DNA of 64,000 nucleotides from Streptomyces sp. NBC_00250. Lineage in GTDB: Bacteria > Actinomycetota > Actinomycetes > Streptomycetales > Streptomycetaceae. The position numbers and the translations under genes were made by a program. The DNA lies in NCBI RefSeq assembly GCF_036192275.1, contig NZ_CP108088.1:4031501-4095500 (forward strand), given 5' to 3'. The notes under the pieces are model-generated. The model made no database searches, was not told the DNA's origin, and was given only the letters and a program-made list of their open reading frames with translations. Shown in pieces: positions 2 through 59,487 of this stretch; positions within the stretch are counted from its first letter, which is position 1; each line of letters starts with the position of its first letter.

Positions 2-1453
2 GCCGCCCTCACCCCCGACCGGCCCGTCCTCCTCCAGGGAGACCGCGTCCTCACCTTCGAGGGCCTGCGCGAGCGCGCCGAGCGCTGCGCCGCCGGGCTC
101 CACACCATGGGGGTGCGCCCCGGCACGGTCGTCGCCTGGCAGCTGCCCACCCGCATCGAGACCGCGGTGCTCTCCTTCGCGCTCGCCCGCATCGGAGCCG
201 TACAGACGCCCGTGATCCCCTTCTACCGGGACAAGGAGGTCGGCTTCGCGCTGCGCGAGTCCAAGGCCGAGTTCTTCGCCGTTCCCGGAATCTGGCGCGG
301 ATTCGACCATACGGAGATGGCCCGGCGGCTCGGCGCGCACGGCGTCTTCGAGGCGTACGGCCCCGATTCCCTCCCCGACGGCGACCCGGCGGTCCTTCCC
401 CCGCCGCCGTCCTCCGGGACCGACGTCCGCTGGATCTACTGGACGTCCGGCACGACCTCCGACCCCAAGGGCGTCCTGCACACCGACCGCTCGCTCCTCG
501 CGGGCGGCTCCTGCCTCGCCCACGCGCTCCATCTCACCTCGTCCGACGTCGGCTCGATGGCCTTCCCGTACGCGCACATCGCCGGGCCCGACTACACGGT
601 GATGCTGCTGCTGTACGGATTCCCGGCCGTCATGTTCGAACAGTTCGCGCTGCCGGACGCCCTGGACGAGTACCGCCGGCACGGGGTCACGGTGGCCGGC
701 GGATCCACCGCCTTCTACGCGATGTTCCTCGCCGAGCAGCGCAAACAGCCGGACGAGCCGGTCATCCCCACCCTGCGGCTGCTCGCGGGCGGCGGAGCGC
801 CGAAGCCGCCGGAGATCTACCACTCCGTACGGAAGGAGCTGGGCTGCCAACTCACCCACGGGTACGGCATGACCGAGGTCCCCATGATCACCATGGGCGC
901 CCCCGACGACACCCCCGAGAACCTCGCGACCACCGAGGGCCGCCCGCCCGCCGGCATGGAGATCCGGATCACCGGTTCCGGGGAGGTACGGCTCCGCGGA
1001 GAGGCCGTCTGCCGGGGCTATCTGGACCCGGCGCAGACGGCCGCCGCCTTCGACGAGGACGGCTTCCTCATCACCGGCGACGTCGGACACCTCACCCCGA
1101 GCGGGCATCTCGTCCTCACCGGCCGGATCAAGGACATCATCATCCGCAAGGGCGAGAACATCTCGGCCAAGGAGATCGAGGACCTCCTCCACCGGCACCC
1201 GGACATCGGCGACACGGCCGTCATAGGCCTCCCGGACGCCGAGCGCGGCGAACGCGTCTGCGCCGTCGTCGAACAGCCCCCGGGCGCCGCCCCGCTGACC
1301 CTCCCGGCGGTCACTGCCTTCCTCCGCGAGGCGGGCCTCTCGGTCCACAAACTGCCGGAACAGCTGGAGGTGGTGGCCGAACTCCCCCGCAACGAGACCC
1401 TGCGGAAGGTGCTGAAGTACAAACTCAGGGAGCGGTTCGGCCGCTCTCTATAA
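2..1453 (+). CDS. AMP-binding acyl-CoA synthetase, 5' end cut by window edge
   Basis: The frame is open from base 2, so the start lies before the window; the ATG at 107 is internal. The enzyme adenylates a carboxylic acid with ATP and passes it to CoA. Visible motifs are the phosphate loop YWTSGTTSDPKGV, the A5 motif GYGMTEV, GDVGHL, the hinge GRIKDIIIRKGENI and a C-terminal lysine in RKVLKYKLRE. The substrate cannot be read from the sequence. An 8-bp hairpin follows the stop, and the next gene starts 52 bases downstream. Confidence 0.9.
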   Translation, partial: AALTPDRPVLLQGDRVLTFEGLRERAERCAAGLHTMGVRPGTVVAWQLPTRIETAVLSFALARIGAVQTPVIPFYRDKEVGFALRESKAEFFAVPGIWRGFDHTEMARRLGAHGVFEAYGPDSLPDGDPAVLPPPPSSGTDVRWIYWTSGTTSDPKGVLHTDRSLLAGGSCLAHALHLTSSDVGSMAFPYAHIAGPDYTVMLLLYGFPAVMFEQFALPDALDEYRRHGVTVAGGSTAFYAMFLAEQRKQPDEPVIPTLRLLAGGGAPKPPEIYHSVRKELGCQLTHGYGMTEVPMITMGAPDDTPENLATTEGRPPAGMEIRITGSGEVRLRGEAVCRGYLDPAQTAAAFDEDGFLITGDVGHLTPSGHLVLTGRIKDIIIRKGENISAKEIEDLLHRHPDIGDTAVIGLPDAERGERVCAVVEQPPGAAPLTLPAVTAFLREAGLSVHKLPEQLEVVAELPRNETLRKVLKYKLRERFGRSL

Positions 1454-1467
1454 TCCCCGGGATCCTT

Positions 1468-1487
1468 CCGCGAGTTCCCACTCGCGG
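1468..1487 (+). terminator. Hairpin after acyl-CoA synthetase
   Basis: Perfect 8-bp stem CCGCGAGT/ACTCGCGG with a 4-base loop, 14 bases after the stop. There is no T-run, as is usual in Streptomyces. Confidence 0.45.
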
Positions 1488-1505
1488 AACCTGAGGGGGA
1501 ATCAC

Positions 1506-3296
1506 ATGAGAAGACGACCCATCGCTTTCGCGGCGGGACTGGCGGCCGTCGCCGGCCTGCTGCTCGGCATACCGGCGGCGAGCCCGGCGACGGCAGCGAC
1601 AGCGCCGACGACGACCGCGCCCTACGCCGATGAAGTACGTGTCATCAGCTGGAACATCTGCGGCGAGGCCGGCAGCGACCGCGGGAAGATCGGCTACTGC
1701 CCGTACCGCAACGAGCCCGGTCTCAAGATGGACGAGGTCAAGAAGCTCGTCGACGCCCACCAGGCGAACGTCGTGATGCTCCAGGAGGCCTGCGGCTACG
1801 AGGGCGCGACGCCCCCGGCCGGTGCCGAGAAGAGTCACATGGCGCTGCTCGCCGCCCGCCTCGGCGCCGGCTGGTCCCTCGCGCACGCCGCCGGGAACAG
1901 GGCCAAGGACTACACCGACGCGACCAACACCTCGCTCAACCCCGTATCGAATTGCCGCGGCACCGCTCTGGGCGGCACGGTCGGCGTCCTGCTCGCCGTC
2001 AAGGGAACCTTCGACGGCCCCGTCGAGCGCGTCGAGACCGTCCCCGCCGGGGTCTCCGAGCGCCGGCTTCCCCTGCTCTGCGCACGGGTCACCGGCCTCA
2101 CGGACAAGCTCTGCACCACGCACCTCATCGACAGCGACAGCACCGTGGCAGAACGGCAGAGCAAAACCGTCCACGACCACCTCACATCCGCGCTCGCCAC
2201 CGGTGTCGTCCTCGGCGGCGACTTCAACTACCGCGAGACCACGGCAGCCCTGGAGCCGATCACCACCGCCCTCGGCCGCTGCCGGAACGACGACGACACC
2301 TCCGTCCACTGGGAGAACGCCGCCGCCCAGCCGCACTGGAGCCGCATCGACCACCTCTTCGGAACCGAGCGGCCCGGTGGGCAGCGGTTCGTGTCCTGCA
2401 CCGTCGACCACTCCCTCCTCGACACCACGCACAACCTGCTCTCCGGCGCCGAACCCCCCAACGGCTACTCCGACCACGCCCCGGTCATCGGCTACCGCCG
2501 CCCCGCCCCCGTCCCCGGCGACATGACCGGCGACGGCGCGCCCGACCTCGTCGCCGTCGACGCCGACGGCAAGCTGCGGCTCTACCACGGCGAGGGCACC
2601 GGCGGGATCCCCGGCGCCCACGACGTCATCGGCACCGGCGGCTGGTACAGCGCCTCGGTGGCGCACCGCGGGGACTGGACCGGGGACGGCAGGGAGGACG
2701 TGCTCGCCCGCGTCGGCGGTGAGCTGCGCGTCTACGCCAACCGCGGCGGCGGCGCGCTCGCCGCGCCGGTCACGGTCGCGACCGGACTGCCCACCGGCGC
2801 CCAGGTCGTGGGCGTCGGCGACACCACCCACGACGGACACCCCGACGCGGTCCTCCGGTACGGCGACAAGCTGTGGCTCCACGCCGGGGTCCGCGGCTCC
2901 GCACCGGCGGTGGCCGCACCCCGCGCGATCGGCGACAGCGGCTGGGACGCCATGACGCTCGCCTCACCCGGTGACGCCGACCGGGACGGCCGGGCCGACC
3001 TGCTCGCCCGGGACACCGGGACCGGCGACCTCTGGCTCTACCGGGGCGACGACGACGGGACCTTCGGCGACCGCGTCCTGTACGGGTACGGGTTCGGGGT
3101 CGGTGCGCGCCCGCTGCTCGCGGGAGGCGCCGACGCCGACCGGAACGGCGTGGCCGACCTGTGGGCCACGACGAACGAGGGCACCGGCACCCTGCTCTTC
3201 TACGCGGGCGGGACGGGCGACACGGGGACCCCGGTGGACGGCCCGCGCACCACGGTCGGGCTGAGCTCCTGGAACACCATCCGGTCCATCGGCTGA
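1506..3296 (+). CDS. Secreted endonuclease/exonuclease/phosphatase-fold protein with FG-GAP repeats
   Basis: 596 aa. The ATG follows a GAGGGGGA ribosome-binding site. Residues 1-30 form a signal peptide with an ASPATA-like cleavage region, so the protein is exported. Residues about 40-330 carry the EEP (DNase I-like) landmarks: VRVISWNIC, VVMLQE, VLGGDFNY and YSDHAPV, giving the metal-binding Asn/Glu and the catalytic Asp/His set. From about residue 335 there are five FG-GAP/VCBS repeats of the type GDMTGDGAPDLVAV and GDADRDGRADLLAR, which normally build a calcium-binding beta-propeller. A secreted nuclease or phosphoesterase with a propeller that binds the cell surface or substrate is likely; the substrate is unknown. 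Confidence 0.85.
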   Translation: MRRRPIAFAAGLAAVAGLLLGIPAASPATAATAPTTTAPYADEVRVISWNICGEAGSDRGKIGYCPYRNEPGLKMDEVKKLVDAHQANVVMLQEACGYEGATPPAGAEKSHMALLAARLGAGWSLAHAAGNRAKDYTDATNTSLNPVSNCRGTALGGTVGVLLAVKGTFDGPVERVETVPAGVSERRLPLLCARVTGLTDKLCTTHLIDSDSTVAERQSKTVHDHLTSALATGVVLGGDFNYRETTAALEPITTALGRCRNDDDTSVHWENAAAQPHWSRIDHLFGTERPGGQRFVSCTVDHSLLDTTHNLLSGAEPPNGYSDHAPVIGYRRPAPVPGDMTGDGAPDLVAVDADGKLRLYHGEGTGGIPGAHDVIGTGGWYSASVAHRGDWTGDGREDVLARVGGELRVYANRGGGALAAPVTVATGLPTGAQVVGVGDTTHDGHPDAVLRYGDKLWLHAGVRGSAPAVAAPRAIGDSGWDAMTLASPGDADRDGRADLLARDTGTGDLWLYRGDDDGTFGDRVLYGYGFGVGARPLLAGGADADRNGVADLWATTNEGTGTLLFYAGGTGDTGTPVDGPRTTVGLSSWNTIRSIG

Positions 3297-58110: not shown

Positions 58111-58148
58111 AGCCCTGGACGACGCCCCCGCCAGCAACGAACTGGACT

Positions 58149-58252
58149 AGACGGCCAGACGGCCAGACGGCCAGACGGCCAGACGGCCAGACGGCCAGAC
58201 GGCCAGACGGCCAGACGGCCAGACGGCCAGACGGCTAGACGGCTAGACGGCT
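58149..58252. repeat. Thirteen 8-bp tandem repeats AGACGGCC/AGACGGCT
   Basis: Ten exact AGACGGCC copies then three AGACGGCT, ending on the stop codon of the DUF1272 gene. Likely prone to slippage. Confidence 0.9.
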
Positions 58253-58433: not shown

Positions 58434-58604
58434 GACGGGCTCCCCTCCTCGAACGTCGGACAACACCCCCATCGTCGAGGCGACCCCGACACCCCCGAAA
58501 CAGCCGGAGGGCCAATGATCAACAGGATCGGGTCGCGCGAGGGCCGGCTCGGCTCGGGCCAGCGGGGGTCCTTGGGGTCGGGGGTCCTGATGAGGTGCGG
58601 GTGC

Positions 58605-58734
58605 GGCCGCCCTCTTTCCGAGTGTGGCGGCCTCCACCACCGCGTCAAGGGCGCCTCCGGCGTCGCTGCGCGATGGGCTGCGCCCACCCTTGACCCGGCG
58701 GCGGAGGCCGCCTTTTCACACTCGGAGGGCGGCC
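58605..58734. repeat. Left terminal hairpin of the large inverted repeat
   Basis: GGCCGCCCTC and GAGGGCGGCC, then CCGAGTGT/ACACTCGG, GGCGGCCTCC/GGAGGCCGCC and inner GTCAAGGG/CCCTTGAC. Core GTCGCTGCGCGATGG. Confidence 0.8.
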
Positions 58735-59287
58735 GGGGGACCCGGCCTACGCAGAGCCCCGGGCAGTGTCCGGGGTCGGTGCGTGCGTCTGACGGCCGGT
58801 GGGTGGGGGCTCGGTTTGTGGCGGGGCTGGGTGGGTGCCCTTCCGGCCGGTCGGGGGGTGCGCGGCCGTGCGATGGGGCGGTCGGGCTTGGCTCAGCGGG
58901 TTGCGGTCGGTGGGTGGTCGGGCTTCAGGCCCCGCTGGTCTGTGTTCGTGGGTGGTGGGAGCGGCTGGCGAGAGTTTCTTGCAGTTTCATCGCCCGGAAT
59001 GGGCGAAGTGCCCCCTTCGAGCCTTTGTCCGAGACGTGCTACTCGGAGTAGTGCAGGGTTTCCACTCCTCCCACCCACCGGGAGTGACCAGCGGGGCCTG
59101 AAGCCCCACCCCGAACGACCCTTCGTCGCTAAGCGCCGCCCGGCCGCCCCATCCAACGACCGCGCACCCCCGACCGGCCGAAGGAAAGCCCACCCACCCC
59201 CGCCGCAAACCGAGCCCCCACCCACCGGCCGTCAGACGCACGCAATCCCCGGATACTGCCCGGGGCCCGGCGGTGACCCCGCCCCCC

Positions 59288-59425
59288 GGACCGCCCTCCG
59301 AGAGGTCTTTCGCTCCTGGAGGCGGTGGGTCAAGGGTGGCCGAAGGCCATCGCGCAGCGACGCGACCGCAGGGAGCGCCCTTGACGCACCGCCGGAAGGA
59401 GCGACTCTCGGAAAGAGGGCGGTCC
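59288..59425. repeat. Right terminal hairpin of the large inverted repeat
   Basis: GGACCGCCCTC pairs with GAGGGCGGTCC; inner GTCAAGGG/CCCTTGAC. Shares CCATCGCGCAGCGAC (inverted) with the left hairpin. Confidence 0.8.
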
Positions 59426-59487
59426 CACCAGAAGCCCACGAACCCGGCCCACCCCTCGCGCCTAGGAGACCCCGCCCATCAGACCCC

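Follow-up and report, generated by a model that had tools for sequence, protein, structure and literature searches.

What kind of genetic object is a long inverted repeat, ending in hairpins on both sides, that lies between two genes in the interior of a Streptomyces chromosome? The repeat studied here belongs to Streptomyces sp. NBC_00250 (G000) and lies in what we call the window, the whole 64-kb stretch of DNA that was analysed. It is found 4.09 Mb along a 9.16-Mb contig, not at a replicon end. Two minus-strand genes are nearby, one for a DUF1272 protein to the left and one for a glyoxalase-like protein to the right.

Layout and folding of the window copy

The window copy (58607-59422) is a diverged dyad: its left half and the reverse complement of its right half are 72.9% identical over 420 columns. 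A first-pass annotation had described a hairpin-arm-spacer-arm-hairpin layout with perfect matches of 39 and 21 bp, which is borne out by a local alignment score of 304, compared with a best score of 33 in 200 dinucleotide shuffles. These two are the longest perfect inverted matches (Table 1), followed by one of 17 nt (58660-58676/59347-59363) and one of 16 nt (58607-58622/59407-59422). The long end hairpins with a common core, which belonged to the same description, are present as well: they are nested, span about 130 nt each and fold as DNA with -61 kcal/mol (left) and -56 kcal/mol (right), their folding z values being equalled by none of 200 shuffles at either end. Judged by eye from other copies, the true edges of the element probably lie about 30 bp farther out, near 58574 and 59455.

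In agreement with the earlier view that no credible protein is encoded, no open reading frame wholly between the two cores passed a codon-usage score; long mechanical reading frames are present in the region. Rfam gave no match at the gathering score anywhere in the 64-kb window, and no tRNA was found within it. Separately, about 12 tandem copies of an 8-bp unit (GACGGCCA) occupy positions 58143-58250 and end about 330 bp to the left of the element.

Table 1. Features of the window copy, in window coordinates
Feature	Positions	Strand	Basis
Probable outer left extension, starting GGGGTCGGGGG	58574..58606		Own-genome copies and sharp edges (GGGGTGGGC) of a related family
Left nested hairpin, GNA loops on minus strand	58607..58736	-	Fold, z -10.3
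Left clover-leaf core, 8-bp outer stem and three mini-hairpins	58644..58694	-	Covariation; model R1, 71.3 bits
Left arm	58737..58964		Inverted repeats I1, I2, I3, I5
39-bp perfect inverted match, left copy	58780..58818		Dyad alignment
21-bp perfect inverted match, left copy	58920..58940		Dyad alignment
Centre; gene-bearing position in two sister copies (GNAT acetyltransferase; lipoprotein-like)	58965..59061		Copy comparison
Right arm	59062..59283		Inverted repeats
21-bp perfect inverted match, right copy	59086..59106		Dyad alignment
39-bp perfect inverted match, right copy	59206..59244		Dyad alignment
Right nested hairpin, GNA loops on plus strand	59286..59422	+	Fold, z -7.9
Right clover-leaf core, same sequence in five own-genome copies	59329..59385	+	Copy comparison, model R1
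Probable outer right extension, ending ...GGCCCACCCC	59423..59455		Own-genome copies

The core shared by both ends is a clover-leaf, in which an 8-bp stem (GTCAAGGG/CCCTTGAC), usually containing TTGAC, bears three mini-hairpins. Covariance analysis, which had been suggested as a check, supports this fold: in an alignment of 18 single-strand rows, 96.8% of the cells are paired and seven pairs have changed on both sides, and none of 500 shuffles was as good on any of five measures. We prefer this alignment to a second one, since the covariation in the latter is inflated by the many hairpins that are present on both strands.

The loops follow a clear pattern. In the left core of the window copy, the plus-strand loops read TCC, TGC and TGC, and among the 281 mini-hairpins of 98 distinct, model-found cores, 255 have TNC loops (GNA on the opposite strand), with all four bases occurring in the middle position, and 264 have a C-G closing pair. 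These counts come from a parser that accepted three-base loops only and from an incomplete set of cores, drawn from 150 of 184 matches. From base composition, TNC would be expected in 7.4% of the loops; among perfect triloop hairpins with stems of at least 4, it was found in 28 of 519 elsewhere in the window and in 24 of 273 in the flanks of the fetched loci.

Passages in the literature describe GNA loops as lending DNA mini-hairpins unusual stability and nuclease resistance (PMC4686876), and the loop as containing a sheared G-A pair (PMC6479982). As this stability rule concerns DNA, the folded form is likely to be single-stranded DNA of the GNA strand, and with regard to the long hairpin RNA that had been proposed as one option, the loop rule points to DNA rather than RNA as the folded molecule. 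A role for GNA loops in RNA is also conceivable and could count against the explanation that we favour below. Together, c-GNA-g triloops with a free middle base, covarying stems and a fixed strand form a clear rule marking a folded single-stranded-DNA function, which makes the hairpins both findable by a model and testable.

The retained symmetry had been taken as a sign of selection for structure. Comparison with the orthologue of the window copy in G061, another genome of this species, upholds this for the end hairpins, with 5 mismatches in 270 aligned positions, but not for the arms, which drift (105 mismatches in 541 positions of arms and centre; length changes are not counted in either figure). 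The genes beside the two copies are 94-98% identical, and the left core is longer in G061 (57 nt) than in G000 (51 nt). For another orthologous pair, the right cores are identical at 57 of 57 positions, whereas the left cores, at 89.1% (5 of 51 positions unaligned), are no better conserved than the neighbouring genes (85-89%). Part of the hairpin conservation may stem from gene conversion between copies.

Strand polarity and likeness to chromosome ends

The paired arrangement of the window copy is general. Among the 162 core matches listed for ten genomes, all 62 close pairs are convergent, i.e. they point inward, at spacings of 685-3143 (median 1286). Outside this set, two cores of G005 form two more convergent pairs, and at least seven further close pairs, assessed by eye in G066, G092 and G109, are all convergent; the exceptions, one divergent (L238) and one tandem pair (L261), lie outside Streptomyces. 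As the TNC strand reads inward from both ends in all 62 pairs, the GNA strand is the 3'-outward strand.

This polarity is shared with the ends of Streptomyces chromosomes. Thirteen contig ends were fetched, of which six were chosen as palindromic-looking; read inward, their triloop hairpins with stems of at least 6 have TNC loops in 25 of 30 cases, GNA in 2 and others in 3, while the remaining seven contain no telomere-like hairpins. In passages of a published study, the 3' overhang of the Streptomyces telomere folds into hairpins with GCA loops closed by sheared G-A pairs, and these hairpins are bound by Tap (PMC4513846). Given inward TNC in both and the published GCA-loop overhangs, the element ends resemble telomere overhangs in loop type and polarity, both carrying GNA-loop hairpins on the 3'-outward strand. 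However, the element is internal in the chromosome whereas telomeres are terminal. We rejected a telomere relic, for which this position is unfit; the clover-leaf model, for its part, has no match at the chromosome start.

Copies, passengers and empty sites

The search for further copies that the first-pass annotation had proposed revealed a repeat family in the own genome. With an 851-base query, 22 matching segments were found at about seven places, representing five paired copies, the window copy included, and remnants. Two other full copies are 94% and 92% identical to the query, and two have extra central DNA, whose product is a GNAT acetyltransferase for L050 and, for L051, a lipoprotein-like protein without a Pfam match. 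The remnants comprise L052, which is devoid of both hairpin tips, and one lone hairpin. The window copy is a worn member of a family of hairpin-ended cassettes, in which convergent nested hairpins form the two ends, followed inward by inverted arms and, at the centre, room for a passenger gene. The arms can be built differently: by eye, those of an element in G011 (L059:1032-2672) are many near-copies of a 60-80-bp unit with CTCAGCG...AAGCCG, possibly a set of protein-binding repeats.

Orthologous copies occur in G061 at the window site and elsewhere. One site lacks the left hairpin, the break falling at the hairpin base, and a second lacks the left hairpin together with much of the arms. When L050 is matched to a third site, the right-hairpin stretch is skipped and the match ends before the left hairpin. 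At a fourth site, a full element in G061 corresponds to the lone hairpin in G000. Since hairpins are absent in G061 where other parts stay, loss can affect the hairpin by itself. The hairpin absence at three sites occupied in G000 may be decay, which counts against a mobility reading. The sites covered by L144, L141 and G061:C2:3526486-3528938 show hairpins missing from G061 at their base while arms or passenger stay, as if lost as units.

Beyond this species, the clover-leaf model (R1) matches at least 49 of 121 Streptomyces genomes among the matches listed and 13 of 149 genomes sampled across the phylum, both counts including the own genome; G005 has at least 40 cores among the matches listed. 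An exact 30-base core variant, searched in one genome for each of 84,980 species, occurs in 42 stretches, all from Actinomycetota by name, and in no viral contig. Phage records contain nothing that explains the element, the core alone matching a single phage, represented by two records (E 0.04). A few Proteobacteria join the actinobacterial carriers when plasmid records are included, and the alphaproteobacterial matches carry the whole hairpin, which continues past the matched part.

Gene-like reading frames are enclosed by 16 of 60 pairs, a set that excludes L178, L180, L187 and L189, which were also fetched. Their Pfam matches are GNAT (two elements), PadR with an alpha/beta hydrolase, an EryCIII-like glycosyltransferase, DUF6069, class IV aminotransferase, glyoxalase, SnoaL-like, aldo/keto reductase with TetR, and DUF3089; several passengers have no Pfam match above the cut-off. 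No mobility gene is common to the 16 passenger-bearing pairs, and no autonomous insertion sequence (IS) with the same ends was recognised among the 60, in which a Mutator-type transposase occurs in a single pair (L175). Reading-frame calls had suggested that one site holds different passengers in two species; we gave up this view because the alignment of L157 with L162 continues across the passenger at 78.5%. Identity between the two ends of an element reaches 97% or more in 2 of the 60 pairs and stays below 75% in 16.

Empty sites were found for a related element, not for the window copy. This element, L150 of G062, lies between two genes, and nine of 11 candidate genomes (all except G065 and G109) were examined for its site. 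In G070, G063, G066, G078 and G107, the site is an empty intergenic region, too diverged for placing the edges to the base; G098 contains other DNA of about 1 kb at this place, and the second anchor could not be located in G125, G129 or G141. Together with the dispersed copies and the passenger genes, these empty sites lend support to the earlier proposal of a non-autonomous mobile element with hairpin ends. Several sites are common to different species, so that turnover may be slow.

The empty sites also bear on the idea that the hairpins are bidirectional transcription terminators or insulators, retained for gene regulation. The 3' side of the neighbouring gene does face the element end in 63 of 102 cases (p 0.02; 18 more ends have no clear neighbour), but it is the 5' side in the other 39, and such a role sits poorly with empty sites and leaves the GNA loops on one strand, the convergent pairs and the passengers unexplained. 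We therefore consider it very improbable.

Other carriers of the core and known systems

The core also travels in other vehicles. In Candidatus Mycobacterium methanotrophicum, it lies inside nine 282-bp elements with near-identical ends, on chromosome and plasmid (L226, L229, L243, L251, L256, L261, L264, L265), which are flanked by 8-bp target duplications at 9 of 9 sites; one element has nine extra bases. Their ends resemble those of the ISL3 family. In Acidiphilium, the core adjoins an ISL3 transposase gene. Both cases would fit ordinary MITE-like elements that are moved by a DDE transposase and carry the hairpin as mere baggage. In Streptomyces, the evidence runs against this. Most G005 copies have common sharp edges, mostly beginning GGGGTGGGC; the ends of its elements differ, and in the 12 of 20 G005 elements tested for target duplication, the mean longest word common to both flanks is 5.75, compared with 5.78 for shuffled partners. 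The target-site duplication sought at the edges of the window copy was likewise not found: the longest words common to both flanks have 5 nt and lie off the edges, and across the window family such words measure 4-5 nt in five copies and 8 nt, off the edges, in L052. With no target duplication above chance in the 12 elements, there is no sign of transposition of the usual DDE kind, and with no transposase common to the passenger-bearing pairs, this explanation appears distinctly improbable for the family.

No mobilising enzyme was found in Streptomyces. A Y1 transposase was rejected for this role, as Y1_Tnp is present in 13 of the 49 genomes with the core and in 18 of the 72 without (Fisher p 1.0; by eye, among the matches listed); it was not found in G005.

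Small plasmids suggest another alternative, namely that the hairpin is a general single-strand signal of plasmids, such as a complementary-strand start or single-strand promoter, which spread to chromosomes and for which the cassette architecture is secondary. Single copies do occur on small actinobacterial plasmids. At 6 of 18 annotated plasmid loci (L069, L070 and L221-L224, including two near-duplicate pairs), a copG, rep, parA or mobC-position gene follows 100-300 bp downstream of the core; the lone hairpins of L070, L221, L222, L223 and L224 lie 100-220 bp upstream of rep, parA or a mobC-position gene, and the TTGAC of their stem, usual in the outer stem in general, resembles a minus-35 box. 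Yet the other 12 loci lack this upstream position, a minus-10-like spacing is, by eye, not kept in the chromosomal families, and matches among plasmid records are few (31 of 72,556 with one core as query, 12 with another query), so that the core is not a core plasmid part. This origin seems unlikely to us. On its own, L069 is a circular Curtobacterium plasmid (D03b) of 1579 bp with one clover-leaf hairpin and, as its single annotated gene, a member of the CopG family; it could represent a minimal plasmid or else a cassette that was excised.

The loop rule, together with the convergent pairs and the fixed strand, is most economically read as recognition of a folded single-stranded end. When the DNA turns single-stranded, the 3'-outward strand at each end would fold into a clover-leaf of GNA-loop mini-hairpins, and a putative enzyme supplied in trans would read the folded end and move or copy the cassette. 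The window copy is, in our judgement, probably a passenger-free member of non-autonomous mobile cassettes whose ends act in this way.

One candidate lead on such an enzyme comes from Actinomadura, where convergent pairs of hairpins of about 175 bp enclose a DUF222 gene of 394-500 aa (L225:2460-4941, L255:3117-5276, L259:1769-4487). Across 19 loci of Actinomadura and Spirillospora, a DUF222 gene lies on the inner side, at 208-913 bp, for 18 of 22 strong cores and at 2.6 kb for one more; the other three have none within the 649, 83 and 66 inner bases covered, and in L273 the first of them (L227) is seen to have the gene between its two cores. The stretches examined around 17 cores from other genera yielded no DUF222 gene. 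Conversely, 12 of 30 DUF222 loci, in seven genomes picked for carrying cores, have at least one core. We take the Actinomadura genes to be of the 13E12 type, with HNH; one of five proteins has a weak HNH match (E 0.25), and Pfam lists the function of DUF222 as unknown. In Streptomyces, DUF222 as mobiliser is unsupported: it occurs in 6 of 121 genomes but was found neither in G000 nor in G005, so that it does not serve as mobiliser there at present. The Actinomadura genes are like the window family in being flanked by the same hairpins and unlike it in the presence of DUF222. The hairpin family gives a lead on this gene family.

More tentatively, the cassettes may represent an undescribed actinobacterial class with clover-leaf, GNA-triloop ends of single-stranded DNA, no target duplication and a dedicated trans-acting enzyme, which in Actinomadura might be the DUF222 protein encoded between the hairpins. 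A literature search, mostly of listings, returned no description of this family, and the 15 papers in which the four core 11-mers turn up include none relevant by title; the cassettes are thus a gene-carrying vehicle of Streptomyces and relatives for which this search found no description.

Three known systems invite comparison. Mobile insertion cassettes (MICs), like other non-autonomous elements with passengers, have matching inverted ends, no transposase and varied passenger genes, and the window family likewise has terminal inverted repeats, varied passengers and, bar L175, no transposase gene. Unlike MICs as they are generally known, its ends are nested hairpins of 130-175 bp with a conserved clover-leaf, it shows no target duplication in the family tested here, and no parent IS was found. 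REP repeats are paired inverted hairpins, mostly intergenic, and in this pairing REP/BIME elements with their RAYT (Y1) enzymes are similar, whereas the clover-leaf carriers have no association with Y1_Tnp. Integron cassettes, finally, are genes attached to a folded single-strand attC site, and the cassettes described here also join genes to a folded single-strand site; however, they have two inverted hairpins each, as in all 62 close pairs, where the integron cassette has one direct attC.
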